The notes under the pieces are model-generated. The model was not told the DNA's origin. It did not search any database and saw only the letters and a list, made by a program, of their open reading frames with translations. 64,000 nucleotides of DNA, taken from the NCBI GenBank assembly GCA_963978545.1, contig OZ021727.1, positions 48,273,385 to 48,337,384 of the forward strand, in the 5' to 3' direction. The position numbers were made by a program, and so were the translations under genes. Positions 6,101 through 63,565 of the stretch are shown one piece after another; the first letter of the stretch is position 1, and every line of letters starts with the position of its first letter. The stretch comes from Linyphia triangularis. Its lineage: Eukaryota; Arthropoda; Arachnida; Araneae; Linyphiidae.

Positions 6101-9100
6101 AATGTTTCAATTGTAATATGTATCATAAATGTAGAAACAGCAGTACACATACTTTTCTAAACATTATTCTAGTGTTTATCTAAGGATAGTCTTTAGAAGG
6201 TTGTTGAAGCGTATGTTTAAAATATAGAAAGTAACTTTTTTGGAAATTAAAAAAAAAAAACAAAAAAAAAACACACACCTACAAATAATCATGTTTTTTT
6301 TAAATTTATAAATATATATATATTGGTATTTCAAATAATTGAACATTTGTTTCAGTGTTTGAACCGATACAATAAATATGCATTGGAATTAGAGGATGAC
6401 TGAGATTTCAAATATAAAGAAGTGCTAAAATGAACACACAACAAATTAAAATTCAATTGATTTTCATTTATCAGTACAATGCAGCTCATTAATATGCAAC
6501 ATAAAGATATATCATACAAAAAAAAGGGAAAAAAAATAATCAAACTTTTCATTTTAGTTAAGACTGAAATACGTACACAATTCACAGATTCTTAAAACTA
6601 ATAAAATTAGGAAAAAATAGTAAAATTATGGTGTTGCATTAACAAAAAGTGTTATTTACAATATTGTACCTTATAAATTTCTAGATAAAACAGAAATATA
6701 ATAATAATACTAATTATTATTATAATAAAAATTATTATCATAATATAATCTGCTAAATATAATCACTTCATAAACAAGCCATTTTTAGGATTTATTCTTT
6801 CAGTTCCAAGGGTATTTAAAAGAATGTTCAGTTAGCCCTGATTCTTTAATATAGAAATTACCAAATAATAACTCAAAAAATATTAAAACACATTTTTTTC
6901 TTCATATTGTTTACAAGCTTTATACCAGAAAAGTTTAAGAAACTTTGGAAACTTAAACAGCAGCAGAGGTTTTGAGAAAGTTACATTTAGTAGAATTAAA
7001 ATCCAGCTACTTACAGTTAGCTTGAAAATTAAATATTTAAATTGATTTCTTCAAAACTAAAATATTTTGAGAAATCAAAATAAATTTTCTCCAAAAATTT
7101 CAGTCACCAACCAAATTTATTTATTTTGTACTTTCTACATGAAAGTTTTTGGAATCAAGAGGTGAGAGAGAAAAGGAGGACAACAGGTATTTTTTTTAAG
7201 AGTGAACTAGATCTTTTGTTATTACAATTTATACCAAACAATACATGCATTATATTTTTGAAATCCTTTCAACTGTGGCTTTGAGTTAGTATTCTTTTTT
7301 TTTCTTTTCTTTTTTTTTAAGATCTTTCAATTTGTCTACCTTTCAATAAGTATGGAATAGCTGTGTGTCAAGTTTTATTTCAATCATTTCAATAGTTTTC
7401 ATGTTATTCAAGCATAAATATTTTAAACAGCCATACATCAAAGTGAGCGCATAATAGTCATGTTTTTGGCCTTTGTGAATGGAACACACTAAAATATTTT
7501 TTCTAACACATAAGTTGAAGATAAAAATGTTTAACATAAACAATAAAGAAAAATTTTAGAATAATTTTTTTTTATTTCTTAATATCATGACAATTTATTA
7601 TCAATAAATTTTAAGGGCATATAAATTAAAGAGTAAGCCAACACACCTTTTGCTCAGATTTTACTGAATCATTAGTTGGTGACTCAACAGTTTTAAAAGA
7701 TATACCATGTTGCAGAGCAAATTCAATTTCAGTTGTTGTATCATAAAGCACCTATAATAAAGCATAAACACATAAGTACAATACAACATTTTTGATATGT
7801 AACTACAAAGCAAATAGATTAAAACAGCAAAAAATTAGAATTTTACCCATTAGAAAAGTTATACCTTTGAAAGTGATTGCACTTCATCATAGTACAATTT
7901 CAAAAGATGACCTGCAACCCCATGCAATGCATATGTATAGGGTCGAATAAAAGGCATATTAAGTGAAGTATCTTCAGACAATCCCTCATTTTTAGCAATC
8001 GAACACTAAACAGAAATTAAACAATCAACAGTAATAAAAAACTTACTTAGGAATGTATTCTTTTTTTACCTATCATACTTACAAAGCTGCTTTGATTTGC
8101 GTGAGTGTCAAAAGTTGAAATATAATCTCCAAATGCTTTAATGTCAGGAAATATTTCCTCATCATTAATTATATACTCCTGAAAATATAAGTTATAAATA
8201 GATAAACATTTTTAATACATAAATGATTGATTTAAATAGATTTTAAAAGTTGTTACAAATGTGACTAACACTCAGCTGACACATAAATGTTTGAGTAGCT
8301 TTACTTATAAGTAGTTCACAAGCCTGTTAGTTATGAATATGCAAGTGAATTTGATGGTATTAGTTCAATATTATACTTGACTTTCAGCAAATGAAAGTGC
8401 TATTTAATAAACAATAATTTTTTTTAGTTTCTACTTTTAAAAACCTGTCTTTAAGCACTAGTTTAACAAAACATTCATTTAGTAATGGCAACATAGGATT
8501 TTAGGTTAGGGTAATAAAGTTTTATCACATGGATTTTAAACAGATCATTAGATAACAATATAACGCAGGAGATTACTAGAATCTTAATAACTTAGCAGAA
8601 AATAAACAAACCTCTATGTTAGACATTTTTGAAGTTTTGGTAACACCAGTAGATATCAAAGCTCTTGCTTTCTGTAAGATGAAAAATAAAGTTGATTCAT
8701 CAAATATATATATATATTTTTTAAGAAATCAAAAATAAATGAGAGTTAAACACTGTGTCCAACTGAAATTTTTTTTATAATAGATTTACACTAAGAACAA
8801 AAGAAAATGCATAAGTATTCCATTTTAAGAAACATACAATATTGACTGTACAATTATTAAAATATTTAATTTATTATTTAAATATTAGGGTGATTAAAAA
8901 ATAGGGGCAAAATTTCAAGCTTCGAAATTTCACAGGGGCATCTGCTAATTTTGTTCTTCCACAAAAAAAAAAAAAAAAAGTAATGCTGAATTTGTTGAAA
9001 AATTTACAATATTTAGTGGTGGCACAACCACCTTGAATTTTAAGAATTTCAGTCATAGCCTAACGGCGCTCAACATAACATAACATACACTAATCAATAT

Positions 9101-15100: not shown

Positions 15101-18100
15101 TTGACAAAACAAATGGCACTACAAATTTTGACTCCCAATTTACCAGCTATATTACCACTGCAACACCATTAAATGCGTTGAAATAACTAAACAGCACCAA
15201 CGAATTTCCATAAGATTTTTTTAAGAATAAGAATAATAAGAATTTATTAGAAGAGTAATAATATTTTGTTATGACTTTTCTGGACAATATACTTTTCACT
15301 TTGCAGTATGCATAAAGTGGTAGGGATTTAACAGTCAATAAAATTAACATAAAAGAAAATATTGCTTAAACTCACCTCTACATTACTGCTTGACTTAGAA
15401 TCATGCACACTTTCCTTTTCTGAAGATGGAGGTGTCTACGAAATTAAAATATGTTATTTGAAAGCTTGCAATTCAATGCTCAAATATTTAAAGGTGATAT
15501 AAATAAAATGTCAATAATATGATAATACATTTTAAGAGTTTTCTAAATTATAATACTTTATTGCTAGAAAAGTGACTCATAACCTTTGAGGCTTGAAATA
15601 AATGTAGAAAAAAAAAAAAAAAAAAAAAAAACAAGAAAAAAAAAAAAAAAAAAAAAAAAAAAACAACAAGAAAGCAAAATAATTATAATTTAAGGAAACT
15701 CTTATGTAACTTTTGAGTTATATATGTATTTTTTTAATTAACAATGTTTTCTTATTTAACATAATTTCTAATCATTTTTGCATTAGTACCTCACAATTAC
15801 AATAGGTATATTTTATTCATCTACACCTGATGTATTAAAAAAAAATCAAAGCAATGAAAATAAAAAACCTAAGTAATGTGTATAAATCCAATCTGCTTAA
15901 AAATGTACACTAGCTGAAGCCAAATAAAATATTTCTTCTACTTTTTTATGAATTTTCCAGTCTTAACTTTAAAAATCTGCAAAAACTATGGAAAATCCGT
16001 ACAAAAGTTGGAATCCCTGCAGTTATCCTCGAAAGACTTCCTGTAAGCATTAGGTAGCCCATGGAACATCAGTCTATATTTTTATAGAATCTGATTAAAT
16101 TTAAGTTCATTATGAATGCATTGGCCTGCATTGACAATAAATGGCAGAAACTGTTCAAAAATTAATTTGAAAAGAGTTGAACCAAATCTGATTGTCAAAT
16201 ACTTCATATCGTACCAAATAATGAGTATTATCTTTTATTTGGTAACTCACCATTATTTAATTTAAAATGAGAAAGAAGTCAAACAATTTCCTCTTGCTGG
16301 CGATTTGCATCTTTTAAAAGTTGACAATAAATATTGTGTGATCAGTCACATAATATTTGTTACTAGATTGGTTCATTTTTAAAATATGGAAGTATTTTTC
16401 TCAAGTGAGGTAAAATCATCTGCATTTTTCCTCATTAAAAAATAAAGGAGCAGGGGCTTACCAAATAAAAAATAAAGCTCATTATTTGGCAAGTTATGAC
16501 ACTGGTAATCAGATTCCGTTCAGCTCATTCAAAGTAAATTTTTGTACAGTTTCTGCTATTTTTGTCCAAGCAGACCAGTACATTCATAATCTAATAAAAA
16601 TTTTCTACACTCTATAAGAAAAATTCAGCATGATGTTCCATGGAATGCAATTGCCTTTCTGTCTTTAACATTGTTTCATAATTAATTTGAAGTAAACAAA
16701 AATTATTTAAAATTATTTCATAAACATGTACAATCTAATTGATTAATGTATGTGAGTTCTGAGGTGTAACAAGTATTCCTTCCATTCTGGGATTTAATAA
16801 TAGCATCTTTATATGCAAGAATATTTATCCACGAGATTGATTGAATAGGGATTAATTCACAATAAATTACTTGCAAATCGAACACTTGGTCAAGAGTCAG
16901 TTTTTGTTCGAGATCTTTAAATTCTTCCAATATTTTTGCTGCTATATTAGGGCTTTTCTCTCCTCTTAGTCTATCAAAGTATGGGTTCAATTGTGTCAAA
17001 GAGGTAATCTGAAATAGTTTTAAAGTGCTTTAAAGTAATATAAACATCCATAAAAACATAATTCTAAACTACTACGATCCTTCTAAATTAACACAGATAA
17101 TTGCTTGAAGAAAACTTGATTAAAGGCTTTTCTAGAATATTCAAATGAATGATACACATATAAGATACATGAATGCTAAGCATACATATTTCTAAATTTT
17201 AAACAATATTTAAGTCAAGATAGCAGTAAAAATACAATTTACTTCATATACACATTCTTTCTTCTTAACTTTTGTCTGTGAAGAATTAGTTGCTACATTA
17301 TCAGCTCCAAGAACCTTTAAAATTAATAATTTTTTTATAAATGCTAAAAGGAAATTCAACTTTTCAATTCACTGTCAGTAAAAGTTAAGATCAAAATGAT
17401 CTGATCAGAAAAGTTAATATAAGGTATTTAATATAATCGAAAATTATTAATATAGTTAAAATATAATAATCATGAATTATAGAATACAGTAATATTTTTC
17501 TTAATTTAAGAATATATATACATTGTTAAATATTTGCAAAGATTGCAATAAAGCACTAAAACCTCAGCAGATTTTCCATGGGGTTTGGATTTGTGATGGA
17601 AAACCTCACACAGATAACTCAATTCTGGCTGCATCAAAAAAAATTTCATTTCTTTATCGTCAAAAAAATCTTGTTTACATAAGCTAGATGGAAAAAGATA
17701 TAGGTAATATTTGTGAATCGATACACTCATTATATGATTTAGTCTGGATTGAGGTAATTGCGTCAAAGTGCAAACTGTTTTTGGCTACACTGGAAAAGAT
17801 GATTTGGTCTTCAAAAGTGATCAGATAAGATAGAAACTATCTGAATATGTCAAGTGAACCTTATAAAAATAGATTTTTCTACAGGAAAATGTGACCATTT
17901 AATGATCCCATTCCACATAATCTGATTTGATACCAACATAGATTTACCTTAGATTTTACAACATAAAGAAAGCATAAATCTGAACCCTATGGAAAATCTG
18001 TATGCATATTCAACACAAATTATCCACGCAAATATTAAGCAATGTATTGTCGTAACAGATTAAGCAAATACATGACAAAAATGTAAAATTGAACACCTGG

Positions 18101-21100: not shown

Positions 21101-24100
21101 CCTTTACATAGAGGAATACATATCTTACATAGTTGAATTTGCTGTTACCTCCTGATTGGACTTTTGGGAACAGTTTACTTTGGATGGTGAAAAAAACTTT
21201 AATTTAAAAAAAGTAATTAAAATTTTAATATTGTGGCTGTAACTTTCAACATTAGAAGTCTAAAACTACTTAGTCTACAATTTCTGTTTTCTGTCTTTAG
21301 GAAGTTATTTTCAATAGAGCAACAGACTTTGTTTTATTCATATAGAACAGGGGTTCCTAAACATTTAAACATTGCAATTCACTTTATCCTTGGTATATTG
21401 AATCTTATCAGAGATGGACATCACACATTCTTTCTGAGAGGTTTTATGTATCAAAAAGAAGCGTTTGTCAAGAAGTAGAGTTTATTTATTATTAAATATA
21501 ATTTTACAAAAAATATTTCAATTTAGACCTGTGTGATCTGTGTAACCCATTGTGGGTTGTGACCTACCACTTTGGAAAATGTTGGTATAGAAGTTGCTGG
21601 AATGTAGAGTAAATATTAAATAATTAAAACACTTTATCTTTTTTGTTAATAATACCTATACATACCCATATATAAAATGTATTTAGAGTGTTTTAAACCA
21701 TTGATTTAATAAGGCCTTCTAAGTTATCAGTTCTTCTAATATGAACATAGAATTAGATATATTAAAGAGGTTTATTAACTATACTATATGTTATTAACTA
21801 TACAAATTAAATCATAAATAAATATAAATTTTATTTAAAAATTTCAAACACTATGACTGGATATACAAATATGAAAAGAGTCGCACAACTTTTTAAGTCT
21901 ATTGATTAATTAATAAAGATTGATAATTAGAGGACTATTGTTAAGTTATTTATTCATCAGCAAATTTCTAAATTAAAGAGTAGTTACTTCAAGTTCATCA
22001 GTGCCTGACTTTTCAACAGATATTTCTTGCAAATCATTTATGTCCTGCAGCAGCCCTTCAATTTCAATCTTCAAATTTTCTAAGACATTACAATAAAGTT
22101 TGTGACAGGCCTCAACCACTTTTTTCCCCTAAAGTAAAATAATTAGTATTATTTATAAAAAAGTAAAGAACTAAAAAGAAAATAAATAATTATCTTTTAA
22201 ATTTGTCCAAATGTAGATTCTTGGTTTTGGTTTGTGCTCTCAACGACCTATACTTGTGCACAATAACAGCTAATCAGGCCGGGACTTATAGCTTAAAGTG
22301 GATTCCGAACCACAACGAACATTCATGTCTAACTCGGGATTCAAACCCAGCACCTTTAGCATGCAAAGCCAGAGCGCTAACCCCACAGTCATCAGGTGGG
22401 CGTAGATTCTTGATGTTATTTGAAAGTGGTAAGTGATCATGTTAAGTTAATAGTGTGGTGACATAAAACACTACAATAACAAGAAAATCCTTGTATTATA
22501 ATATTGGATAACAATATATTTTCCACATAAGGTTTGGACAATTTGTAATTAACATTCTTATCAATTATTTTATCTATTAATAAAATAAACATACCTTTAA
22601 TTCCAACTTATTTTGAATATAAACAAATTTTGATACTTCCAGTTGAAGCCATACAGAATCAGTATTATTTTTTTCTACAATGGCTTCTAGTGTTGGCGAG
22701 TATAATAAAATACTCATGCTACCCTATAAATCATAAATAATTAAATCCACTAACTAATTCACATTTTAATGCACAACATTTTTTGTATAAGCAGGCAGAA
22801 CAATATTTAAGCAGTATGGTACAAAAACCCAGTAAAAATATTTCATGACTTTTCAGAAGCATTTTGTTTATTTTAAAATTGTATTACAGTCAAAACCTGT
22901 TAATGCAAAGTCGAAGGGATTTCGGAAATTTTTCATGTTAACCGTCTAAACCTTTTTTTTTATTAAAGCAAATTTAAACTACTAACTACATGTGAGTACT
23001 TAATATTGCTGTTTTTAATTTATATCTTCTATTTTACCAGTCCACTTACGTTTCCATGCAGGCTTAAATTGGTTTACAGCAAAAGTTGCTTCAATATTTT
23101 CCTGATTCCATATTTGGCAGCAATTTCTTCTTTTTTTCCTCTTTTTAAAGAATTTATTATCTATTTCATTTAAAAATTTTTGCCTCATTTCTAACGATAA
23201 CGATTGCTGCTTCCGACTCATATTGACAAGATTCAACATGCAAATGCGACTGAATTAAGTTTCTAAACCTACTGCTGTATGCAGGACATCACAAAATCTG
23301 TTTACAGAGGAATGCCATCTAAATTTGCGCCAAAATTAGATAATTTCACAGCGATTTTCTTGAAATGTGATTACTCAGTCATTTTGCATGTTTCATATCG
23401 TTTCAACTGGAGGAAGGTTTTCGTAACACCTTTAAATTCAGTCTCAATTAATGAAGACCATCTAAAAAAAGTAGTTTGGAAAGCAGATTTGTTTTTGTCC
23501 GAAGTAGGATTTCATGTTAAATGAAGTTGTTTACGAAACATATTGTTACGTCACATTAAACTGTTAAGCGATTTTGAGTTAATGGGGTTTGTCTGCATTA
23601 TTTGGTAAATAAAAATATCAACAAAATATCAACAAATTTTCAGAATCCCAAATATTTCTAGAATAAAATCCCTTATTTCCAGATTTAACCACTTAGTATA
23701 GAAATTTATTAGTTAAAAATGTATTAGTATTATTAGTTAAAAATGTAATAGTACTATTTCTAGTTAAAAATGTATTAGTATTATTAGTTAAAAATACGTT
23801 AGTATTAATAGTTAAAAATGTATTAGTATTATTAACCATTCAGCTTTCAAAAATCACATACTTAGTATACCACATAAATTTAGTGATAAAACATTTAATT
23901 TAATATAAACAAACTATAAAACTTGTTTATATAAATATTTTATTTTGTATGCAATGAAACGTCAATGAAAAAATACTGCAAGTATCAATGATGTTTAAAC
24001 ACTTTTTCACATCAACATGTGGTGGTTAGCTATGTTTTCTTGGACAATTTACTGCAAAACTAAGCTTTAATTAGCAAAATACAATTAAAGAGAATTTTCT

Positions 24101-27100
24101 TCAAAAGTACACACATCGAGAATACTGTATTTGGTCACAATTTTTTTTATAGAATAGTTAGAATATAATAATTGAATCTTTGATCTTTTTAATCGCTATT
24201 GACAGTTTATATACATGGAGAGTTACAGATGGAATTTTGTAAAGTTTATTTATTAAATTTTAGTAAAATTCATTACAATTAAACTATATGTGCAACTTCC
24301 AAAAATTCCTGTCATGTAAAAACAGTATATTAGTTTCTACCATTACAAAATAGCAGGAAGATTTTTTTTAAATGATTTTTTTAATTCAAATTTTATTCAG
24401 TTTTTAAAATGTAAAAAAAAAAAAAAAAAGAAGGGGGGGGGGGAGGGTATCATTTAATAGTTTAAATATAAAACTGTAAAAAATATTACATAGTGCACAA
24501 GACTCCAATACATATTATGAAATAATGTACTGTTTCTTTCTTTACCTCTTCTTTCAAGGATTTCAATAGTTTGAGAATATACTGGACTTCAGTTTCTTTT
24601 TTTCCCAAACAAGAAATTAAATGCTTTCCGCAAGAAATCACAATGGGTACAATCTACATAAAAATAATTATAAGTTCTACAATAAAAATATTAAACTAAA
24701 AAGCAACTGCTAATATAAGATATCCATTACTTTTATAAAATTTTGAAAATACAAGTTAAAACTCCAAAACTGACATACCTCAGTTTCCAATGGCCACTGC
24801 TTCAAATCACTTTTCATAACTTTCACTCCACTTTCTCTTTCTTCAATGCCATTTTGCAAACACCTCTTGCAATGGGACAGTAGCTCAGTTTCCTTAGAGA
24901 ATAATTTACATTTATTTTAACATTAAAAATAAATTCTCAAGAACAATTTTATTAATTAGGTAGTATTAAAATTGCATACTTCTGCTGATCCCATAATTTG
25001 TAGATGAGATAATTCAGAAGTCATTACTTTTATTTCTTCTTCTCTTTTGTAAATAACATCAGTGATAACCTGTTCACACAAGCTAAAGATATATTTTTTC
25101 TGCAGCATCAAAGTGAAAAATAAAATAAATTTGTAATAAAAAAACAGCCTGAACTAAATATTAGATACATGTATTTTTCAATAATGAGGTAATGCTTCAT
25201 ATTTACAAATGTAAATTGATTGATCTAAGCAATTTAAAGACTTTCAGACAACTGAAGTATTTCAAATAAATAAATGCACCTTTATTGAAGTTGCACTAGT
25301 TTAAAGCTAATGCACTTTAATAAAAGAATATGCTTCAATAAAAAATTGTTTTAAAATGAATTCAAAGGAATTGCTTCAGAGTTCAAAAAATGTCATTTCA
25401 TCCTCTAAAACTTAAATACTTGAAAACATAAGTGCTGAAAGCATGAATACAATGGTATTGAATGTGTTTTATTACCAAGTAGTTCTTAAAGCAAATGAAC
25501 AGTAAATAACAAAGAAATTACTATATTAAAAATGAAATTCAGGCATAAAATATAACATATTTACCTCTTTGTATAAAAATTTAACTATGTGAGTAAGTCT
25601 AAGCAATTCATCTTCAATTGAATTTAGCGCATTGTTGTTTAAGTAATTGATTTCTTTTAAACACTCTTCACAAGTAATTGCAATATCCTGAAAGTAACGA
25701 TTATTATCCACATAACATTAATATATCAATTAATTGGCATAAAAATTATATAATATAATCAGTTAAATAATTATACCTTTATAAGTAACAACTATCATGC
25801 TTTTAGTTTGACTGAAAATCAACAGAATACCTAAATGAATCTACTTTAAATTTTGCATGAAGGTACAATACAAAATCTGAATGTTGATTATACATTTTTT
25901 CTAATTTATGCAAGTGGAAAAAATGCTAGTATCTTTTTGATATTGTGAAGTTCATTATAAATATGCACATATTTTTCCTCAAAAGTTACTGAGGACATTT
26001 ATATATTATTTCTCGATTGAACTCTTGAAAGCTTAATAGTAAAAGTTTCCTTCAACACTTCAAAAACTGCATGTCTTTTTAACTACTTCAATGAGATATA
26101 TGTGAAACTTGGAACAAATATTATCTCTCTATACTTACTTTGCATATTTTAAAATTATCTGAAAAAAATATTCACATACTGTAACAGAAACAAATTCCCA
26201 TACTTTTGATTAACCATTTTAAAATAATTCATTTTCTTCAATTCAAAGGTAACTTCAATGGTAACAAAGATTTCTCATTCAAGAATAAAATGTTTACTCC
26301 AATTAAGAACAATTCCAAATAATTTAATATTCAGAAGTATTTCAAATTAAGCCTAATTATCAAATAGACTTGCCTATTAAGAAGTAAAGCAAATATGATA
26401 AAGCTTAACAGAGGGTGGATATTAAAAATTTTAGAGTACTATTCCGAGATGCATGGTGTTTTTAGAATTGGTAAAAGTGAGTGAAACTTTGGGAACATTT
26501 TATTGAATGAATGCAGCCAAACTGCAATATCTATTTGGAACCAAAACACATCATGCAGTACATCTAATAATAATTTACTTATATTACTAGTTTTACTAAG
26601 TGAAGTTCTATTTCATTCTATTTGTAAAAATTATTTTTATAAAATACAAAATAAAGAATAAATAATTTTTTTTTTCTTAAATTTAGATTTGCATTGATGT
26701 TAAATAAATAAAAAATAATTTTATTGTTTAAATAGGTTAAGTTTTAACAACAATAGTGAAAATAACTTTAAAAATAAAATAAACTAATTTCTTCATAAAA
26801 CATTTAAATGATTAAGAATTCAAACAAAATTAGAGTGATATTTTTTTTTATACTTCTTTATTAACCTGTTCATCCAAAACCTTTGTGATTGATCCGAGCT
26901 CTACTTTTCTTTTTTCTTGAATGCTAAAGTAAGTTTCTTTGCAAGAATTGAGGATTTGTAATGACTGCAAAATATTATGTATGTACATTACATTAAAAGA
27001 AACAATATGTATCATACCACAACTAAATTAATTTACAGAGTTTAAATATAGCCTATTGTGCCTAAAATAACACCAGTTTGATAGCCAGAGACAAATATGG

Positions 27101-39100: not shown

Positions 39101-42100
39101 AAAGTTGTGGACTCTCATTATTAAAAAGTGTGTAAAATCTTAAAACACTGAATTGATATCTTCTGTCGCCTCAATGGGTTGAAAGTTGGATTAGAAATGC
39201 TTAAAAGTCAAATATTAATAAATAATCACAGATTCGTTGATCATTTTGCAGTAATGCTTAAAAGTTGCTGGTTTTTAATAACAACACCTGTAAACATTTT
39301 TAGAATTATACGTTAATATCTCCTGAAGCCTCAGAGGCACCAAATTTTGAAAATTGAAAGCAATTGTTTAAATAAAAACACATACACATTACACTTTCCT
39401 CTTTGTAATACAAAAATAAACTTCATTCCAAATTTCAGGCTTACAAATTACAAAAGCATTACTGATTACAATCTTTTTTAGGACTGTTTTTCTGACATTT
39501 TTTTTTAACTAAAAATTCTAGCATGTGGTTTCTGGATTCTAGGGTTGCTCCATCCCTATTCTGCTGTCCAACTGCTTTTCAGGTGCCTTCAGAGTTTAGT
39601 TTTACAATTTGTTCGATTTCTTATGTGCACGAAGGATATTTAATAAAATCCTAGTCGTCCAAAGGACATAAGTATTACTATTGCTGGCTAAGTATTGCTT
39701 ATGTTCATTTTAACTGATGAGTTCGCAGATTCGCTATTCCCGCTTTTAACCTTGGAGCTACAAACTACACAGATCTCATGAACTTACAAATTTGCTATGT
39801 AACTTTACCTCTATTTCTCAGAGAAAAGTTTTTAAGAACTTTGGAAGATGATACAGGCTTGTGTGCCAATGGACGGCTAGGATTTTATCACTCACGCACG
39901 CATGCAAGCATGTACAAGCGCACACACACATTTGAGCAAATTGGAAGCTGTGTCCCCGCTGAAGCCACCGGAAAAGTAGTTAGACCGCAGAATAGGGATG
40001 GATCAACCCTAGAATCCAGAAATCACATGCTAGAATTTTTAGTAAAAAAAAAAAAGCCAGAAAAACAGTCCAAAAGAGATTACAGAGATGCTTTTGTAAT
40101 TTGTATGTCTGAAAGATGGAATAAAGTTTATTTTTGTATTACAAAGAGGAAAGTATAATGTGTTTTTATTTTTAAAAAAAATTCTTTAATTTTCAAAATT
40201 CGGTGCCCTTGAGGCGGTAGAAGATAATAACGTATTATTCTAAAATTTTTTACAGGTGTTATTGTTGAAAAACAATAACTTTAAAACATTACCGCAAAAT
40301 GATCAACAAAATATGTGATTATTAATTTTTGTATTTTAAGAATTTATAGTCCAATTTTCACAACTTTCGACCCACTGAAATGAAAGACAATTCAGAGTTT
40401 TAAGATTTTACACACTTTTTAATAATGATAGTCCACAACTTTTCCACACTACTGCTAAAAGATTCCAGATACTTGGACTTTTACAGCCCGGATCAATATA
40501 TATATATTGTGATGATATTATAAAAATGCAAATAAAAGATTTTGGTTAATTTCTATGAAACTTTTTAATTATATATAATATTAAGTTTCCTTAATGAATA
40601 CTAAATATGAAGTTAACAGGAAATATAAATGATGGTACGGACAATTCCCACATTTTTTTAAAAAGATTGAAATTAACTTATATTTATGAAGAATTTCTTC
40701 CGAATTCCAAATATTCAAACAAAAGTTCTTTAAAAAAATTAGTTATTTAAATATTAAGAAAAGAAATTGTGCCGAAACCCTGTCCGATTGCAAAACGATC
40801 CGCTATAGCTGTGAAGTCAAAACATGCTTCCTTTTCTATGATTATCATGAGGTTTCTGCCAAATAGTTGGTGTTGGTTCGGTAGACAGTTGCCATATCAT
40901 ATCTCATACAGGTTTGCACGATTTGTGAGTAACTTTCAAAACTGGTTTCTGCTGCTGCGTTTCAAGCCAAGTTGTTTCATATAAAGTGACATCACATTGG
41001 ATTCGAGCTGAATGAATTGTTTTTCTCCCCAAAACTAACAAACAAACTTCGGTGGCAAATTTAAAAAAAAAAAGGAAAAGCACAATGAGAAGAAATGTTT
41101 GTGTTTATGGCCTATACAAAACATTTAGAATTGAATAAAAAAATTTTTTAAAAATGTGGGAATTGTTCATTGTGGGGGTGAGAATGAGAAGTGACTGTAA
41201 ATCGAAAATAAAACAAGAATGAGAATGTAAATCTAAAATAAAACAAGTTATCTTATTGAAATAAACACACCTTCAACTTCGGCTTTTTTAAAAGCATATC
41301 AACTGTTTTCACATCCATTTGTAGGTGATTATCACTTCTTTTTTCAATCAATATTTTGCAGTCAGAGGTACAACGATTCAAATGCTCTTTTAACTTCGAA
41401 GGAGCATATTCAATTCAGAAAAAAAATTAAACAATTCAATTACTATATCAATTAAAATGCATGAAACCAGTAGAATAAGAAACATTGCAAGTTATATAAA
41501 CATTTTTAAAATTACTTTTTTAACATTTATTTAAACATCATTAATTTAAAAAGTTTACTATAATATTTAATTTATATATTTGATTACAGTTGGTTCATTT
41601 CAATAAAATTACCTTTTGTTCAAAATCACTTTGAATTTTCTGTAAATTTTGAAGCCTTTTCTTTATGTAATGACTTTGCTGTTTATTTCTTTGATAAATG
41701 GAATTTTCCATACTATAATCAACATATTCAGAAAACATCTCCTTCATAAAACAGAAAAAAGAGGTATTTATTTTTATTATCAATGCATAATCAAACGTAT
41801 CAACATTTTGCTATAAACATTTGATAATATATTTTTTTAATTTTTGGAATTCTTGATAGTCTTTTCAAACCTTTAAATATTTTCTGTACTTATTGATTGG
41901 CTATTTAAATTTAATGCCTTTATGTACAATTCAAATTAGATACAGTTAAACAAATTTATATACACTAAATTAGTAAATGGTGTTCAATTTAAATCGTAAT
42001 TAAAGGCATTAATTTTCAAGTCAGACTAAGGAAAAATATGTAAAGGTTTGAAAAAATTATCAAAAGTTCTAAATTAAAAAGAATTATTATTAAATATTTA

Positions 42101-45100
42101 CAGCAAAGATTCAGTGACATCTCCAAACGACAAAGATGCTGTATCTGCAGTGAAGTCCACTTTTTGCCACTTACAAGATGTTGATTAGCTGAGGATAATG
42201 AATTGTCATAAGACAGCATCATTTCAACCACTTTTGATTTGATCAACTAGCAGGTAGGATGTGTATTAGTTGACTTTGAATTTTCAGCCAACAAAATGGT
42301 GAAGCCGCAGAAATGGCCAGTTTCGGCCATTTCTGCCACTGCAAACCAGGGGATTTGTAATATACTAACTTTTCTCCACTTTCTGTAAAAAATTCAGAAT
42401 GATGTTCAATGAAGTACCTAAACTTGTAATTGCCTCCCAGTCTATCAGCTAAGATCTAACTGACTCACGCTGCAGTGTAGAATCCACCTCATTTACATGC
42501 CCTCAAGAGTTTTGCCAGACGATTTTTCTCTCCTCTAAATGAGTACCACAGAACATCAAAGCTACATCACGTTCTCCATCACATTATCCAGCTCATGTCC
42601 TTGCCGAATATTTAGATTTCTTTCTTTCCACCACGGTTCTTCCCAGATATCTAAGTGTTGTTGCCCCAGTTTTTCCTCCACCTCAACCAACTATGTCCCA
42701 TAGAGAGCCATCATTTTCCCTATCAACTATCTAAGCCTTCTCATCGCTTCCCACCAATGATTAACAGCTCCAATGTTTTCATTTTGCAGATATCCCAAAA
42801 CTGGGTTCCATTCAGGTACTATTTCATTCATCTCCAAGGGGCTTGAAATCTGGAATCTATTTTTAATTTAAACTTTTGTTTTACTGTGGTCTGTCCTCAA
42901 GCCAATATTTTAATAACCCAAGATATTTCTCACAATGAAATCTGATTCTCCCCCCAAAATTTAGTAGATTTTGCAACCCTATTACTTCACTGGGCCTCAT
43001 CATCAAAGGGCAATTGTTTGTACCATTTAAAAATAGTAATTTTATTCTGCTAACAACTCTTTGATAAAACTTTTTTTACTTTTGGGCAAATTGGTCCTGA
43101 GTATATTTCAGGTTTATTGTAACCTTCCCCTTTTCAGGTATTTTATTTGTTAGTTAGACTATTGATCACTAGGCCTGTTAAACCAGACTAATTAGTTCCT
43201 CAAGAGTTAATGTTCACAATGCCATCGCTCTATGAACCTCTTCAACTTAAATTCTAATTCCAACTTTTCTTAACCCATGTCAAAACAAAATTCGAAAAGA
43301 ATCTTTGTAAAACAGAACAAAAGGATATTAATATTTATTTTTCATCATCATTACAGAATCAGAGAATGTATTCAGAAAATATTTCCTTTGCAAAACAAAA
43401 TGGTATTAAATTTTCATTTTCATTAAAGAACTGGATGTATCAACATACATAGAAAGTGTCTTCTCTCTATATATAAGGCAAAGCCTTCACTCACTAACTG
43501 ACTGACTCACTCATCACTAATTCTCCCACTTCCCACATGGTCACAACTCTGAAAATTGGTACAAATATCAACAATGATAGATATAGAAAAAATAAGCTAT
43601 TCCTATCATGATTAACCCACTTTAAGAGGTAGAAAAGGGGTTAAACATTCCAAACGAGGGATATTCGAATGTGCCACTTCCCACATGGTCACAGCTCTGA
43701 AAATAGGTACAAATATCAACAATGTTAGACATAGAAAAAGTTAGCTATTTCGATCTCGATTAACCCACTTGAAGGGGTGGAAAAGGGGTTAAATGTTCCA
43801 AATGAAGTATATTTGAAAATGCCACTTTCCACATGGTCACAACTCTGAAAATTGGTACAAATATTAACAATGGTAGACATAGAAAAAGTAAGCTATTCTG
43901 ATTACATCACAATTAACCCACTTTAAGGGGTCAAAAATGGATTAAACATTCCAAACGAGGGATATTCGAATATGCCACCTTCCCCATGGTCACAGCTCTG
44001 AAAATCCCAAGCAACACACTCACGTTGTTTCTATGTGGTTTTTTGGTGGATACGTTGAAAGTGAGAAATGCACATTGTAACCATATTGTATCAATGTGCA
44101 ATTCCAATGCATTTTTTAAGGAAGCTGATATTTTATAGCAAATAGTAGCAGAAATCAATTTATTTCGTATATTTTTGAGGGGTTTAAATTATGTAGTAAA
44201 AATAAAGTCAGAATTTCATTTTCTTCACTTTTTTAATGTGATATCACGATGTTGTTTCAATGTGATATTTCAACCAGTCAGGAAATAAGTGTCTTCTTTG
44301 GTTTTTGGAAAACCCCAATCCTGTCCAAGAATCATATTAATTAAAAACTTTGGTAAAAGCAATTTATGAAAGCAAAAAAAAAAAATCCGTTTACTGAATG
44401 CGGTTTTATAATATTGCATCAATGTGATAATTCAACTATACTTCAACAATTCACCACTGATCCACGATTTTCATCATCCGACGCATGCGCAATACGCTTT
44501 TACCTTTCAGTGATGACGTAGCTAGCGTCACTTTTGAACTTGATTTGAAACTTGACCATTTGACGTTGTCTGTTCTGTTGACAAATGGATTTATGCCTTT
44601 TCTGGTAAGTTTTCTTCATTACATTATTAATTTGTACTCTATTATTTGCGTTTTTCTAAATTAGATGTTTTTCTATTTATAAATGAAATTAGATAATGAA
44701 TGATGTTCTTATCAGTGAGGTTTGTTGATTTTTGGGACACACGTGTGACATAAATAAACCTAAGGTTATATTTCACTTGTTTTGTATGAGCTATAAAACT
44801 GAATGGGCTGTCTTGTAAAAGTATGTTTTTCTAAAACGATTGATCACTGAGAACTAAACATGCTGTATAAATATTATTTCTATACTTGCTGAAAGAATTT
44901 TTACGGTAATTAAATGAACTAATTAAGTTAAAAAAAAAAACTCCACCGTAATATTACAAATGCAGGGCCAGGTATTTATTTCAGGTGGAATATAAAATCT
45001 TTTTTTTTTTTGGCTTATAAAATATAAAACCTAGTTTTTTTAATTCATTCTCTCATGTTTTTTTACAATAAAAATAATTCATAATTGTATACGTGGGAAT

Positions 45101-48100
45101 TTTTCTCAACTTCCTTTAAGGAGAATAAAAAATTATTAATTATATGATTATGTTAAATCTTAAAAAAGACAACGCTGTCTCAATACTAATAATTATGATT
45201 GTTTTAAATCAAATTAGGCTGGGTTTGCATTAGAAATCACAAGGAAACATTTTCGTAGACGTATTTTACAGGACACCACTTTTAAATAAGAGAAATTCCG
45301 CTCCACTAGATAACCTGTTTATCAAGTCGAGACCATATCTGTCGTAATTGTCTTTGCACTACGTCATTTGTAATTGTAACTGAAAGGCTTCAGAATCAAA
45401 TTAATTTCACCAGGAACGTAGTTGTTTTCCAATACAGCATTTAGTGTGGTAATATAGTCTTATAATGAAGATGTGAAAATAGCTCTATGTGGAACAGAGT
45501 GGCCTCGGAACATGGAAATCTGAGAAACGTCAGGGGGCTATCCGATTCTGGGAAAAATCGGGGAATTGTCAGGGAACTTTTTAAAATTTCACGAAAATCA
45601 GAGAAATTGTATTTTTTCTAAATGTACATCTCCCAGTTCATCCATATTTTGGCGCCATTTACCCGAATATTGTGGTGGTAATCAATAGTAGTTTAATGTT
45701 GCAGAATAATTTAAACTTTTCATTACCACCGAAACATTTTTTGTAAAAAGTTGGCATATTATTACTATCAATTACCCATATGTATACATAGGGGAAAGTA
45801 TAGCATTCGGTCAACAAAAAAAAATTTTTTTTTTTTTTTTTTTTTGCATTTCTCCACATTTTGGAACATCTGGATTTCAAAAAATTAATCTTGAAAAAAA
45901 TTCTGTGTGTGTAAGAGGTCAGCATAACTCCCGAACTAATTGACCTACGATGTTCAAATTTGGTGTGCGAGTTAGTGGTGGCACAGGGACCTACCATTAA
46001 TGTTTTCGTCAAAATCAAGCATGCGCAAAATGTAGCTGCCATTGAAAAAAATCATGTTTTTCAGTAATTGCTAAACTGCTCACCGCTGGGCTAATGCCTC
46101 TTAAGGGTTTTCTTTCGGGGTTTTTTTTAAGCAGCGACGGATAACAAATTGAGAATTTTTCCTTATTCCGCCTGGTAATCAAATCGATATTTCAATATAA
46201 GGTTTTAAAAAGATGTCTTCATGCTAGTTAGTCCATTTTACCTGTGTCATCAGTGTAAATATATACATGTACATAAGGATGATACATTTTATAATAGTTA
46301 TCATATTTTCAGTTTACTTCCACCATGTACAACACTGTGGAATGCCGAACGGGTAGTGTCTGGAATCTGATCGCTGGCTCCTAACAACTGAATACTACCC
46401 TTTTCAGGTAATTTGATAAATGGAACAGATGTAGTACAGGTTAGGATATTTGGCATTTAAAAATTTACAAAAATTAAAAACACAGTAACTAAAATAAAAC
46501 CTGTTGCCGGAAACAGCATTTATCCGGGGGGAAAAAAGGCAAAGAAATATCTATACCTGGTAAACTTGTCAAATGCTTAAGAACTTTCTAAAAAACTAAA
46601 ATTAGAAAGTGTAATTCCGTTCTTTTACAAAAAATATTCTGTTAAATTTTTTTTTAGATCTCCCTTTTTGTTATACAGTCAAACAAGGTTGGCATGGTTT
46701 AAACCGAATAGTTTTTTTCCCCCTCTTTTTAAAGACCCCAGAAGCACAATAATATATAAGGTTCTGCAACGGGACTTTTGACAGTTACAAATGTTCTGCA
46801 GATATTTTTTCAAAATTTCCATTATGACATAAAAGAAAAAGCCCATAAAATTAATACTACACATTTATTGCAAAATGACAATGACGAAAAAAATTATTTT
46901 TCAAACCAAGGCATACATTCAAAATTTGTAACTTTATCAATGACTTTCAGCAAGAAAAGCGCTCCAGAACGGGAAACGGACATGTGATTGATCCCCCTAT
47001 GAACGTGGGGAGTTTTTCTATAAGAAACTGAAGCTCGGGGAAATGTTGTTCCGAGAAAATTGGGGGAGGGGGGACAATAAAGTCGTTTTGTTCTGCAGAA
47101 CATGTCATCCCGTAGGTGAAATTCTTTTTCTCACTTGCGGGCATTTGTTCCAAACTTAAAATTGTTCTGCAAGGACTCTGATTGTTCTGCGACGTACGTC
47201 GCAGTTTTAGGCGCACTTTCTGCTTTCGGGTTAAAGACTAATTTAAAATTGTATTTTTATTTGTTTATTTATAATTAGATTTTTTAAAATTATTTGTTGT
47301 TGTAAATAACTTTTTTAAAATAAATCTTATAATGAAAAACTATAGAAGTTTTTATAAGTATCAAAAATAACTTTTTATATTAATCTAAGCGTTTTATTAC
47401 TGTTTCATAATTATTCAAAATTAATTAAATTATATGCTGCATTTTAAATTTATTTGTGAAATAGAGGTTTTGTGCTTAAATAACTTATTTCTAAGCCTTA
47501 AAAAAATAATTTTGTGCAACTTATCACCATTACTGATGAATATAAGAGCAATATTCCATGTAGAAGCAGTAAACAATTACTATTGTATTATATTGTTTCC
47601 ATTGAATTTAAAAAAACATATCTCTAAATATAATATTAAAATTTAATATGATTTGATTGTCCACATAAGTAGCAATTGTTTATTTACTTAGTTTAAATTA
47701 TTTTCAGAAGGAATATTATTTGTTATTTGAACATTAATTATTCTAGTTAATGTCAAATTTTATTTATAAATATGTATACATTTAATAAGAAAAGGAATTT
47801 TTTTAAAAAACCAGTATAAACACAAAAAAAACCACCTTTTTTGGGGGGGTGGCGGGTTCCAACCCTGCAGTCAAACCCCATTAACGCGAAGTCGATGGAA
47901 ATTGTTCGTGTTAACCGAATAAATTAACTTTAGGTTTTAAGTACAGAGAACTGCTTTTACTTTGCGTTAAACAGGAGTTCAGGTTAACTGATTTCAAGTT
48001 AACAGGGATTGACTGTACCAAAGTTAGATTTGGGAATACTTTTTAGAATAAATTTATTTATTGTATTAAGATGGAACATTTTTTTTTTTTCCAATGTTCA

Positions 48101-51100
48101 GTGGACTTGCTTATTTCCCCTTTGTTAGAGCTGCTGTACTTAAACAGTATGGCCACAGAACCTGGAAAACAAGAAACTTTCCGATTCTGGAAAAAATCAG
48201 GGAATTTTTTTAATTTTCACGAAAATCAGGGAATTTTTTTAATTTTCACGAAAATCAGGGGAATTTACTGTTATTGTTTAGGGCATGTTTTCCCATCATC
48301 CCTATTTTGGTACCATTTTCCTGGAGATTTGCTGTGGTAATCATTAGAAGTTTAATGTTACAGAATAATTTAAAATTTAATTACCACCAAAGCTATTTTT
48401 AAAAAAAATTGGCATATTATCTCTTTAGCACTATTCAATCAATGTGTCGACATATCTGGGAAAATTGTAAAAAGTTTGCAGGAAGAGAAATTTTTAGATA
48501 TCTGTCAGGGAACTTTTTTTCCTGAATTTTGTGGCCTCCATGTTAAATGACACTGATAGTTCTTTTGATAGTCCTCTATAATTTATATATTAAGTGTATA
48601 ATGTCTTTATTCTTTTTAAATTAGTTTTGCTGTTGTGAAGATGTCTGAATTATGGCAGTATTATTATAACAAGGCTGCTAGTGGCGTTTACTAAAGTGAC
48701 TATTTTAGCCCAGAGAAAACTTTTTTTGGTAAGAAAAATATCGGTACTTACGTATTAACGCCACCGCAGCTACAGATTTGATAGTTTTTAAGTGCCGCCA
48801 ATAAAGAGCAATCTTGTTGTTTGCATGCAGTTATCTTTTGGATTCCTTGTAAGTAATTAAAAACCGCCAAATCTGTAGCTGCGGTGGCGTTAATACGTAA
48901 GTACCAAATATCCTAATTGACTATTTTAATCTCCAGGCAACTATGTAATGAAAAAAGGGTTCCTAACTTTGAACTGGAAACCAATAGAAAGCATGGCTTC
49001 AACTTGGTTGCAGCAGCTCATTTAATTTATCCTCAAAGTAGTAAAGAGTGTTTTTGAATTTAAAGCAAAATTTGTATGATACAGTAAATTTTTCTAAAAG
49101 TATACCGAAGAGTAAAAGGAAACTAAGTTGTTTCAATCTAGAATTTTCAAAAATTATAATTGGTTTCCTATTGAAATATAACATTCATTAAAAACCTATA
49201 TTATATGTTTTTCCTGTAAATTTTTCTACTCTTCATTTTAGTTTTCAAATACTGGGTGGGAGTAGGCAACATTGGTATTCTGCATCTGCCTTCAAATTTT
49301 TTTTACATAATCTACTTTTGATTAAACTATATTGTGTATCGTCATTGCATGATATTCTGAAATAAGTCTGTTATTGCCTTAAATGGTCGTGTGATCTTTG
49401 GTCAGTCCTATGTGCAAACCATAATATGAAGGGTGCTTCTGCATACTGGCATTGACTTAAAACCATCCAAAACAAGGGGATAGCTTTCAACGCGAGAGAG
49501 GGATGTTTTAAGTCATAAAAAAGGGATATTATTTTGATTAATATATTCAATCTTTGAATTTGGTTGGCGATTTAAGTAGCAGAGTTGGATTTGAGCATTT
49601 TTACACGTCGTATTTCTTTATTATTATTTTTGGCATGGTGTCTACTTTTAAAAATTGGAAAACAGTTATATCTATATAAATATATGTTTGAATGGTTTAT
49701 TGTATTAAATAAAGGTAATTTTATTTTAGAGATTATGAAAACAATCAATGAGAAGGCGAAAGAAGCTCGTGGAGTGACATTAAGGCTGCTAATTGTGACA
49801 GAGATGTGGAATATTTTTGGGAATGATATTGTGGATTGTAAACATGGATTATAACATATGGTTCATAAACTTAAATAATTGTTTTGTATCTCCTTTCTTA
49901 TTTTACTGTCATTAAATGGGGTCTTGAAGTTAAGATCCTACTGTTGCTCTGAATGGGATATGTCATTAAAAATTAGCACATATATATTTAATCATCTTAT
50001 AATTTTCTATTTGCTGGTTTAAAGTGTGAACTTAGAAACAATTTGAAAGGTATTTGTACCTATGTAATTGTGTTAGGACCATGTCTGTTACTGTTACATG
50101 TAATTATTAATATTTGTTTTATTAACATTTGTTTTATTAACATTTGTTTTAATGTTATTTTTGTGCGTGCTATTTTTAAAATAAAATTATTTTGAACATT
50201 ATGTAATGATTTATTTTTACAGTTAAAAAATATATATATATAATTTTTATTCAAATTTGATTAGTTCAGAGATAATTAAGTAGCAGATATTATAAGTAAT
50301 TTTAATTGTGGTTCATTAGTGCAAAATTAAATTTTTGTACTGAATAATCCTCGGCATATAAAAGGAAAGTTTAATTTTTCACAAAATGATATTCTACCTA
50401 CTAAAAGATGATACATAGTGTAACAGTAGTTGGAAACTCTTAAAGCCAATACTTGGAAAATATCTTAGTTTTAACTTTTTCTTTTCATTAAATGAGAGTT
50501 TCTATAATGCAACTTTACAGTGTTAATAAAACTAAACACATTCATGTGAAAAAAGTATGTGTCAAAACAAGCGCTTAGGAAAGTAGGCAGGATACATTCT
50601 CTTCCAAATTTTTTCTGTTATCTATTAAAATACAAAAATCAATAATTTGTTTTGCTTAAAATTGCAACTTTAAATGGTATTTTGAATTTTAATTTCATAA
50701 CCTCTTCCAAAAAATATGAGCAATATGAAAAAGCAATATGAATATGAGTATATATGTATGTGAATATGAAAAATATGAGCAATACTGTTTTAACATGGGT
50801 GTTCCACATTGTTACCACATGATAGTGTTCACTTTTACCAATGTTGTTTAAATATGAATCTTCCACATGAGTGTTCAATCTTGATTCTTGCCAATGTTAC
50901 TTTCCAGAAAAACTGTTTCTACAGCACTATTTCTTGGGCTCGAGAACTATATAGTGCTGAAAAAACAGCATTATGGGATGTGTGTCTTGAAACAACATTG
51001 GCAAGATTCAATATTGAACACTCATGTGGAAGATTCATGTTTAAACAACATTGGTAAAAGTGAACACTATCATGTGGTAACAATGGGATGCATCCATGTT

Positions 51101-54100
51101 GAAACAACATTGACATTCAACGTGGAAACCACATGGGCAAAAATGAACACTCTCATGTGGAAACAATGTGACAAATCCACGTTGAAACAATATTGACATT
51201 CAACATTGAAACCACGTGGGCAAAAGCTAGCATGTGGAAGCAGTGTGATATATCTACGTAGAAACAACGTTGGCACTCAACGTTGAATCCACGCTCCTTT
51301 AAGTGAACACTTCCGCTTGAAAACAACGTTGCAGTTCCACGTTGAAACAACATTGTGCATGTTGGTATTTAACGTTGACACCACATTGAAACAACATGGT
51401 TGCGTTGCTTGGGATTGATGCAAAAGTCAACAAAGACAAACATGGAAAAATCAAGCAATTCTGATTTCGATTAACCCACTTTAAGGGGTATAACCCACTT
51501 AAAAGGGTCAAAACGTTCCCGAGGGATATTCGAATGTCCCACTTCCCATATGGTCACAACTCTGATATTTGGTACAAATGTCAACAAAAACATAGAAATC
51601 TAAGCTATTTTGATTTCGATTAACCAACTTTAAAGGGTCGAAAAAGGGTTAAATGTTCCAAACAAGGGATATCCGACTGTCCTACTTCTGATGTAGTCAC
51701 AGTTCTAACATTTGGTGCAATGTTAAGAATGGCAAATTCAGAAAAAATAAGTTATTCCAATATCGATTAATGAATTTTTAAGGGATGAAAAATCGACGTT
51801 ACATTGAAACTATACAAGGAATATCTTACTGTCTCACTGCTTTTATGTAGCAAACTATTGCATTCCCGATTAAGTAATTAAAAAGGGTCAAAAGGCGGTT
51901 AAACGTTCTAAACAAGGGATATTGAAAAGTCTCTTTTTCAACACATTCACAATTATAAGTTTTGGAAAAAATATCAACAAGGGCAAGCATAGATAAAGTA
52001 AGGTATTCCTATTTCGACAAATCAATTTGTCTGGATCGAAACGAGATCAAATGTCTGAAGTGTGGAATACATGAATGTCTTTTGATTGCTAAAATGCACA
52101 TGGTAAAATTTCGTAGCAAAGTACGGGTATTCAGCTAGTATTTTAATAACAGAACGAAAGGGTATTGATGTTTATTTTTCAAACAATATTTAATTATAAT
52201 GGTATACATTTTTTAACCTTACATGTGTGTCTTGAAACAAGAATATATTTTATTGTTAGATACTGGTAGGGACCATAGACATTTATTTTCAATAAAAAAA
52301 AAACCCTTAAGTTTTATTAATATTAGTATTATTAAGTAAATTAAGTATAATACTGTTATCATTTAATTTCTTAAAGAAAAAAAGGTATTTTGAACAATTC
52401 CACAAACCTTAACATCTTTTAAACTTTCTAGTTCATTATCGATTTTCTTATTTTCGTTTTGCCTGTATCTTTTTGCACCATTGTAGTATTTTCTAAGAAA
52501 CTTAATGGACTTTGTAGCCTAAAATATTACAAGAATTATGCATTATAAAATTATAAATGAAATCATACACCAAAAAAATGTAGCAAAAACAAACTGCTTT
52601 GTAAATAAATTTAAATAAAAATAAACTGTCATCAAATGATTGCGATATTTAAAAATAAATAATATAATTTTTCTCTAACTACATACTTATCATGAAAAAC
52701 TAGTTATAACAGAGCAGGGCAAAAATACCATTTTGTTTTCCTTTGGATAACTTTCAATTTTCGCAAGTTCTTGTTGAAGAATCAATAGTTCAAACAATCT
52801 CAAGTCCATGCCATTTGATAGTATTTTTCTCAATACCTCAATGGCAGTATATGGCTGAAAGATATATTACATATATTTTTATAGCATAATACAAAATGAT
52901 TTAACAAAATTGAATTAAAAGCTGAGAGCTAAACAAGCAAAAAAGCACTAAATTAAGCAAGCAAAAGAGCACATGCAGTTAAGCATGGATTCACCACAAA
53001 ATGTAATAGATGGGAAGCTACTATATGTCTCAATAATAACCCTACAAGAACCAAGCTTCATACTTCCACTCACTACCTTACACCTGCTTTAGTAATTCTA
53101 CAGTTAGAAAGATCTTTTTTTTTTAAGTAAGTTTTTAGTAATGCAATCTTATTTTGTTTAAAACCATGGTTTTAAAATTATAGTCAAAAAATGTTGTTAG
53201 AGGCTTTTTAGATGCCTTACATAGGCTGATTCATCAATAATATAAATTAGAGCTATTATATTATTATATTAGCTTGTATAAGAAAGTATTGACTCTTGCT
53301 TTAATTTAAGAAAACTCTGGTAATAAGTGCTTGAGATTACTAATTTGAATAAATGTAAATTGCAGAAACAAATTAATTTTTTTTTGTATACGTAATTATT
53401 TTTTAAACATTTGTAACACAAGCAATACTACATTTGTATGATTCACACACATTCCAAATTTGAAAATAGTTGTTAATAAAAGTACATTGTGAATTTGAAA
53501 CTTTAAATATAAGAAGAAAAATTAAAGTCTTACAAACCTCAATATCATCCACTAGAGCAATTTTACTTTCAGAAATCTATAAAAAAAAAAAAAAAAAAAA
53601 AAAAATATGTTGCTTTTCCCAAAACCTTAAAAAAAAATCATGAAATCATTTGTTTTACAGTAAAATGATGATAATTTCTTAACTTTACATAATTTGATTG
53701 TTATCTACTGAAATAACTGGGATACTGACAGCCATTGTTATGAAATCATTGTCTCTTCACACATTACACATCTGTGTAATGTGTGAAGCCATAAGAATAT
53801 TTCAGGCATGAGGATTTTTGTAAAAGGTTTTTTAAGACTTCAATAAAAGTACCAACAAGATATTTCAGAATGAATCTTCTATTCAAATCCTTATGCATGA
53901 AACTAATTAAATTTTTGGATATTTCTTAACTGGGTATAATAAACAGGGATGCGAAATATATTATAAAATATTGATTAAAAGAGTATTTAATATAGTTTTA
54001 CAAGATACATGTTTAATATCATATCAGAGAAACACTAAGCGATTCTTAATACCTTTTTATTGAGTCTATAAAAAAGAAGTGAAAATAAATAAAAAAACTG

Positions 54101-63565: not shown

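Follow-up and report, generated by a model that had tools for sequence, protein, structure and literature searches.

A 64,000-nucleotide stretch of the genome of the spider Linyphia triangularis (GenBank assembly GCA_963978545.1, contig OZ021727.1, positions 48,273,385 to 48,337,384 of the forward strand; hereafter, the window) carries on its minus strand part of a giant gene, in which a long array of repeat-encoding exons probably sits inside a hexokinase-related gene: a PTB domain and the repeats, on exons that begin and end in phase 0 (phase 0-0 exons), would have been inserted into a single phase-0 intron, and the product is predicted to be a non-catalytic helical scaffold. The site of insertion would be the intron equivalent to intron 5 of glucokinase. 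The preliminary description of the window, made from the sequence alone, recognized the array and presented the gene as built almost entirely of such units, a view that leaves out the C-terminal tail, the PTB domain and the hexokinase that they probably divide.

Gene model and the exon array

The gene was modelled iteratively and corrected against spider orthologs. The final model has 48 exons, all bounded by AG/GT, of which 42 phase 0-0 exons run from 63565 to 7647 on the minus strand and are followed by six mixed-phase exons down to 3321 (Table 1); the 48 phase 0-0 exons counted in the preliminary description could not be reproduced. The model reads through 1,975 codons without a stop, which is a check of consistency and no proof, the exons having been picked for open frames. 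In a scan of splice sites alone (generic matrices, score >6), class 0-0 accounted for 16 of 30 candidate exons on the minus strand, overlapping alternative exons being counted among the 30, and for none of six on the plus strand. When phase was left free up to 45 nt from the ends of the 37 ortholog-supported exons, generic splice scores placed frame 0 at 34 acceptors, 30 donors and 27 pairs.

These 37 array exons, together with all six downstream exons, are supported by tblastn matches of at least 26 bits to eight spider proteins; no ortholog reaches that threshold for the exons starting at 57031, 53538, 17243, 15376 and 8612. At a threshold of 26 bits there are 313 high-scoring segment pairs (HSPs) for the minus strand, all but 2 of them within the model, and 8 for the plus strand; at 30 bits the minus strand has 237, all within the model, and the plus strand 2. 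The array is real: the splice-site scan already shows a surplus of class 0-0 on this strand, and the ortholog matches follow the model. Most exons do encode 35-50 residues, as first described (32 of 43, median 41, with a subsequently dropped exon, 17563-17628, still counted), and introns in the exon list in use at that stage range from 76 to 10,666 bases. An array in decay or without function, whose frames are open by chance, is extremely improbable: low GC content and weak splice sites at several exons might suggest this, but the predicted protein is 38-49% identical to seven proteins of other spiders, largely in 1:1 order, and the frame stays open throughout. All homologs returned were spider proteins with no described function, by length-limited queries that say nothing about absence outside spiders.

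Other candidates were discarded or altered along the way: a terminal exon with a stop (3145-3213) was dropped for lack of ortholog support, exon 17563-17628 was dropped as unsupported, exon 53451-53576 was trimmed to 53538-53576, and the acceptor at 4164 was replaced by 4173, which the orthologs require and which yields an exon of 156 nt. Gene-finder runs with retraining overfitted and were kept out of all counts.

The hexokinase second half and the split point

A hexokinase second half follows the array in the six exons at 3321-5485, where Hexokinase_2 (the large domain) scores 42.9 bits against a Pfam cut-off of 24. The same domain exceeds the cut-off in ortholog models P0002, P0003 and P0004; Pfam does not report it in P0005, P0006, P0007, P0008 or P0009, which end before or within the domain. 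In human glucokinase, exon 5 ends at c.579 (Gly193) and exon 6 at c.679 (Gly227) (PMC11919142, PMC12941200), while intron 5 contains c.580-1 and intron 7 contains c.864-1 (PMC7831070); these boundaries make exon 6 100 nt and exon 8 (c.864-1019) 156 nt long. The first hexokinase exon of the window (5386-5485) opens in phase 0, extends for 100 nt and closes in phase 1, matching glucokinase exon 6 in length and both phases, and the exon at 4018-4173 matches exon 8 likewise (156 nt); between them, exons of 80 and 107 nt occupy the place of exon 7 (184 nt). With numbering from codon 194, a Cys and a split Gly of the window coincide with Cys220 and Gly227.

No first half precedes the second in the window (Pfam) or in P0002, the two halves being non-contiguous. 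By the simplest reading, everything that lies between them most likely entered a glucokinase-type phase-0 intron 5. The phase 0-0 pattern of the repeat exons would then follow from the phase of that intron and the need to keep the frame: exons added at a phase-0 site would have needed phase 0 at both ends, and the array would have grown by whole-exon copying before the sampled spider families split. A second hexokinase first half, proposed in the exons at 8083, 7865 and 7647 from likeness by eye, was rejected; the stretch of P0002 ahead of its second half has no hexokinase match at E<=10, and the corresponding part of the window has no Pfam Hexokinase_1.

Loss of catalytic residues

The position of the catalytic aspartate, which we take to be Asp205 of glucokinase, is occupied by T in the window, P0002 and P0004, S in P0003, P in P0005 and A in P0006. 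Nor is GTGxNA, the phosphate motif, conserved (the window reads GNEFGL), and in aligned P0006 the first-half motif DLGGTN is replaced by CAHAQN. Because none of these is kept, the hexokinase-related product is predicted not to phosphorylate sugars and to have a non-catalytic role. The Glu of the GLLEQIR/GLLELMR motif is retained in the window, P0002, P0003 and P0004 despite the loss of the Asp.

The first half, the PTB domain and the tail in other spiders

The Argiope model P0006 begins with a hexokinase first half (residues 2-139 by Pfam), followed by a Disabled-type PTB domain (residues about 190-350, nearest PDB match Disabled-1 (Dab1), 2.4e-13), about 4,300 residues with repeats, and about 57 residues of the second half (from about residue 4627 by tblastn); the halves are about 4,460 residues apart when the end of the first is placed by eye near residue 165. 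Hexokinase_1 was found in P0006 and P0007, and P0009 has a partial first half that Pfam does not see at E<=1. The Pfam family PID scores 21.0 bits in P0006, 21.2 in P0009 and 19.3 in P0007 against a cut-off of 20.9. The junction between the end of the first half and the PTB domain is common to two genera (Argiope and, in part, Trichonephila inaurata). At the other end, the tail of P0002 (Trichonephila clavata) weakly matches designed PPR proteins (2.9e-5) and is predicted to form successive helices; the PPR motif in the ortholog tail reaches 16.2 bits against a cut-off of 25.

Several observations weigh against an array inserted into one hexokinase gene. The first half and the PTB domain lie outside the window and are known from gene models of two other genera. 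P0006 is the only model that combines a first half with any second-half sequence, which breaks off after about 57 residues, and Pfam reports no Hexokinase_2 in it; the other Argiope model, P0007, stops ahead of the second half and has a PTB domain just under the Pfam cut-off, and P0009 has the PTB domain with only part of the first half. Pfam finds neither Hexokinase_1 nor PID in five of the eight models (P0002-P0005 and P0008), which begin inside the array or bear foreign N-termini. The models themselves are imperfect, the C-terminus of P0005 being integrase-like (18.6 bits against a cut-off of 25.5). Within the window, two additional introns interrupt the counterparts of exons 7 and 9 of glucokinase, the model of the hexokinase fold is weak (mean predicted local distance difference test score (pLDDT) 49.7), and neither the C-terminal end of the hexokinase nor the PPR-like tail of the orthologs was found in bases 1-3320 (no minus-strand HSP of at least 30 bits); the gene probably continues past the low end of the window. 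Finally, an origin of the repeats in the PTB domain is unsupported (see below).

By eye, the N-terminus of P0002 looks fused to a transposon-like protein. Because both P0002 and P0005 appear fused to transposon-like sequence, single gene models of this family are untrustworthy from end to end.

Two other histories are less probable. Exon shuffling might have brought a hexokinase second half to the 3' end of a helical-rod repeat gene, with the first half and PTB domain of Argiope and Trichonephila as separate additions, such that no single hexokinase was ever split. This is unlikely: five of the eight ortholog models do lack the first half and PTB domain and P0006 alone spans both hexokinase parts, but the halves are complementary with no detected overlap, have both lost catalytic motifs, and are separated at a point where the sequence resumes as a glucokinase exon does in position, length and phase, while the junction of first half and PTB domain recurs in two genera. 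It is less likely still that the N-terminal hexokinase and PTB domain are an annotation chimera of neighbouring genes and that the gene in the window is simply a giant repeat gene that ends in degenerate hexokinase sequence. The first half in P0006 has lost DLGGTN, as expected for the partner of a dead second half, and stops where the second half begins, and PTB domain and repeats lie within one model in two genera; in favour of a chimera are the frequency of wrong fusions in models of long multi-exon genes and the name of P0007, 'Protein disabled like protein'.

If a single hexokinase was indeed interrupted, membrane proteins or phosphoinositides would be the ligands of the PTB end, the rod would span distance, and docking surfaces would be provided by the lobes of the hexokinase together with the PPR-like tail, in a protein that would not phosphorylate sugars. 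A more doubtful extension is that the separated halves reunite as a dead hexokinase fold, clasping both ends of a helical chain of several thousand residues in a giant closed loop; the number of frame-neutral exon cassettes included would set the length of the loop, and the enzyme fold would act as a belt buckle.

The repeat unit

The array exons share an ungapped motif of 18 residues, approximately S-[LCW]-x-x-I-F-x-x-A-x-E-x-R-x-x-E-I. Across 42 exons (including 17563-17628, dropped later, and leaving out the 13-residue exon as too short) it scores 444.6, against 318 +/- 9 and a maximum of 335 for 30 shuffles, whose searches were run with a smaller number of starts and iterations than that of the real exons. 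It starts at residue 6 in 20 of the 42 exons, the commonest offset in 20 shuffled sets being shared by 3-7. The gapless 18-residue core of the preliminary description therefore stands well above shuffled sequence as a property of the set, but the exons are weakly alike one by one, with 18 of 42 beating their own shuffles at p<0.05 in leave-one-out tests. The Argiope protein P0006 has 40 sites above 6 bits, compared with 5 in one shuffled copy, its later part being orthologous to exons that trained the motif.

No repeat family reaches its Pfam cut-off in the pieces of the window or the whole orthologs scanned (the spectrin repeat scores 12.1 bits against 29.9), NCBIfam, a library made for prokaryotes, finds nothing in P0003 or P0006, and a profile of 32 repeats has no PDB match better than E=0.11. 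The repeat family is without a name in the libraries searched, and the earlier statement that it belongs to no described family holds so far. A seven-unit stretch of the Araneus protein is predicted to be helical (mean pLDDT 77.6). With exons paired to helices by tblastn match positions on that protein, exon 36383 corresponds to helix 130-166, 35388 to 169-224, 34287 to 249-281 and 34054 to 285-330; in the fold model three exons fuse into a single long helix, and 34724 is mostly a loop of low confidence.

Derivation of the repeats from the final helix in the PTB domain of Disabled, which shows a striking likeness by eye, was not supported and is kept as a lead. Disabled chains are unlisted at E<=10 when the repeat profile is compared with the PDB, and a matrix of Argiope repeats gives p=0.50 for Dab1 and p=0.69 for Dab2. 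With the motif from the window exons, the helix is the best site of Dab2 (p=0.11) and only the second of Dab1.

Age, growth and exon skipping

Counted from the 49 exons listed at that stage, the exons matched at 26 bits or more are collinear in 38 of 40 cases with Oedothorax, 35 of 36 with Argiope and 39 of 41 with Araneus. FastTree groups the window with Oedothorax (support 1.000), to which it is 49.4% identical, compared with 38-43% for the others. Because the order of ortholog exons is largely collinear, the array appears to be older than the sampled lineages, which suggests that it predates the split of the sampled spider families. Growth by whole-exon duplication, as proposed at the outset, agrees with the shared register of the motif and, given the collinear orthologs, must be old; no recent exon duplication is seen in the comparison with these three genera.

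The ortholog models contain ten gaps of at least 20 window residues, three of which keep the frame and coincide at either end with an exon junction to within one residue: P0002 lacks 55696 (ends 0/0 residues off), P0009 lacks 55696, 54662 and 53538 (0/0), and P0004 lacks 7647 (1/1). The others comprise a 40-residue gap in P0003 (7/7) and a 39-residue gap in P0005 (0/5), two further gaps in P0003 that misfit the junctions (28/6 and 0/14), and three that are cut or foreign model ends (the N-terminus of P0002 and the C-termini of P0005 and P0009). The exon-exact gaps offer indirect support for the frame-neutral skipping envisaged in the preliminary description, but omissions in annotation give the same picture.

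Relation to known proteins

The gene resembles metazoan hexokinases and glucokinase (HK1, HK2, GCK) in the sequence and fold of the second half, in its 100-nt and 156-nt exons with the phases of exons 6 and 8, and in the first half present in Argiope orthologs; it differs in the distance between the halves in P0006 and in the loss of the catalytic Asp and phosphate-loop motifs. Its PTB domain is closest in the PDB to that of Disabled (Dab1/Dab2), but has a hexokinase half on one side and a giant repeat array on the other, and we know of no Disabled gene of such architecture. Nebulin, spectrin and titin consist of many similar units on frame-respecting exons and form elongated helical or modular rods. 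The spider array is likewise composed of many similar units on frame-respecting exons, but its repeat sequence is distinct, with no Pfam match, and it has mostly one unit per 0-0 exon, within an enzyme gene. The likeness of the P0002 tail to PPR and other alpha-solenoid proteins is confined to the weak match and successive predicted helices; the motif falls short of its cut-off and the tail was not found in the window.

If the inserted-array reading is correct, the gene would clearly illustrate how evolution can be channelled by intron phase, one phase-0 intron of an ancient enzyme gene having taken in a binding domain and then dozens of exons of the same phase. An enzyme would have turned into a giant non-enzymatic protein, and a single gene would tie together exon phase, the growth of repeats and the origin of a pseudoenzyme; each step could be dated by comparing genomes that have the insertion with genomes that lack it.

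Table 1. Exons of the final chain, in order of transcription. Bits are those of the best ortholog HSP from tblastn with spider proteins.
Feature	Coordinates	Strand	Support and remarks
Phase 0-0 repeat exon, 46 aa	63428..63565	-	HSP up to 42 bits; first in window, gene runs on past 64000
Phase 0-0 repeat exon, 41 aa	62068..62190	-	64 bits
Phase 0-0 repeat exon, 44 aa	60634..60765	-	47 bits
Phase 0-0 repeat exon, 69 aa	59523..59729	-	39 bits; possible alternative donor gives 42 aa
Phase 0-0 exon, 42 aa	59261..59386	-	53 bits
Phase 0-0 exon, 34 aa	57792..57893	-	59 bits
Phase 0-0 exon, 46 aa	57031..57168	-	splice and codon scores only; no ortholog HSP
Phase 0-0 repeat exon, 49 aa	55696..55842	-	50 bits; missing in frame from P0002 and P0009 models
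Phase 0-0 exon, 39 aa	54662..54778	-	42 bits
Phase 0-0 mini-exon, 13 aa	53538..53576	-	place and length like P0008 by eye; no HSP
Phase 0-0 repeat exon, 42 aa	52729..52854	-	40 bits
Phase 0-0 repeat exon, 37 aa	52408..52518	-	49 bits; 10.7-kb intron next
Phase 0-0 repeat exon, 43 aa	41613..41741	-	53 bits
Phase 0-0 repeat exon, 41 aa	41271..41393	-	46 bits
Phase 0-0 repeat exon, 46 aa	38463..38600	-	47 bits
Phase 0-0 repeat exon, 43 aa	38174..38302	-	30 bits
Phase 0-0 repeat exon, 43 aa	36570..36698	-	57 bits
Phase 0-0 repeat exon, 37 aa	36383..36493	-	44 bits
Phase 0-0 repeat exon, 45 aa	35388..35522	-	55 bits
Phase 0-0 exon, weak repeat, 37 aa	34724..34834	-	37 bits
Phase 0-0 repeat exon, 40 aa	34287..34406	-	40 bits; 40-residue in-frame absence in P0003, ends 7 residues off junctions
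Phase 0-0 repeat exon, 43 aa	34054..34182	-	38 bits
Phase 0-0 repeat exon, 48 aa	32445..32588	-	46 bits
Phase 0-0 repeat exon, 37 aa	28641..28751	-	40 bits
Phase 0-0 repeat exon, 37 aa	26854..26964	-	30 bits
Phase 0-0 repeat exon, 41 aa	25565..25687	-	45 bits
Phase 0-0 repeat exon, 40 aa	24980..25099	-	74 bits jointly with 24779..24892
Phase 0-0 repeat exon, 38 aa	24779..24892	-	74 bits jointly with 24980..25099
Phase 0-0 repeat exon, 36 aa	24546..24653	-	54 bits, 78% to Oedothorax
Phase 0-0 exon, 43 aa	22595..22723	-	45 bits
Phase 0-0 repeat exon, 47 aa	21988..22128	-	54 bits
Phase 0-0 repeat exon, 52 aa	20666..20821	-	56 bits
Phase 0-0 exon, 24 aa	17243..17314	-	splice scores; like P0003 by eye; no HSP
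Phase 0-0 exon, 46 aa	16871..17008	-	39 bits
Phase 0-0 exon, 20 aa	15376..15435	-	splice scores; like P0003 by eye; HSP just 23 bits
Phase 0-0 exon, 68 aa	14481..14684	-	84 bits
Phase 0-0 repeat exon, 41 aa	13289..13411	-	60 bits
Phase 0-0 exon, 67 aa	11549..11749	-	81 bits
Phase 0-0 exon, 20 aa	8612..8671	-	splice scores; HSP 24 bits to P0003
Phase 0-0 exon, 32 aa	8083..8178	-	52 bits
Phase 0-0 exon, 47 aa	7865..8005	-	56 bits
Phase 0-0 exon, 35 aa, last ahead of hexokinase	7647..7751	-	37 bits; missing in frame from P0004
Hexokinase exon, 100 nt, phase 0 to 1, = glucokinase exon 6	5386..5485	-	ortholog HSP; catalytic Asp position = Thr
Hexokinase exon, 80 nt, = glucokinase exon 7, first part	4942..5021	-	ortholog HSP
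Hexokinase exon, 107 nt, phase 2 end, = glucokinase exon 7, second part	4673..4779	-	ortholog HSP
Hexokinase exon, 156 nt, phase 2 to 2, = glucokinase exon 8	4018..4173	-	87 bits
Hexokinase exon, 131 nt	3611..3741	-	ortholog HSP
Hexokinase exon, 134 nt, last found in window	3321..3454	-	ortholog HSP

Other features of the window

The 10.7-kb intron (41742-52407, minus strand) between the exons at 52408 and 41613 contains tandem arrays of a 148-bp unit (43526-44005) and an 83-bp unit (51043-51293); across it, P0002 and P0003 pass directly from exon to exon with no unit missing. Intronic open-frame fragments at 9056-10640 (minus strand), three of which have no Pfam match, are perhaps a decayed transposase, and a 120-codon Arg/Glu-rich open frame at 30682-31041 (minus strand), with no Pfam match above cut-off, is perhaps derived from a mobile element. 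Similar reading-frame text (GFESRV and neighbours) occurs at 1478-1977, in a 210-bp tandem unit, and at 22167-22446, and is probably that of a dispersed repeat element.
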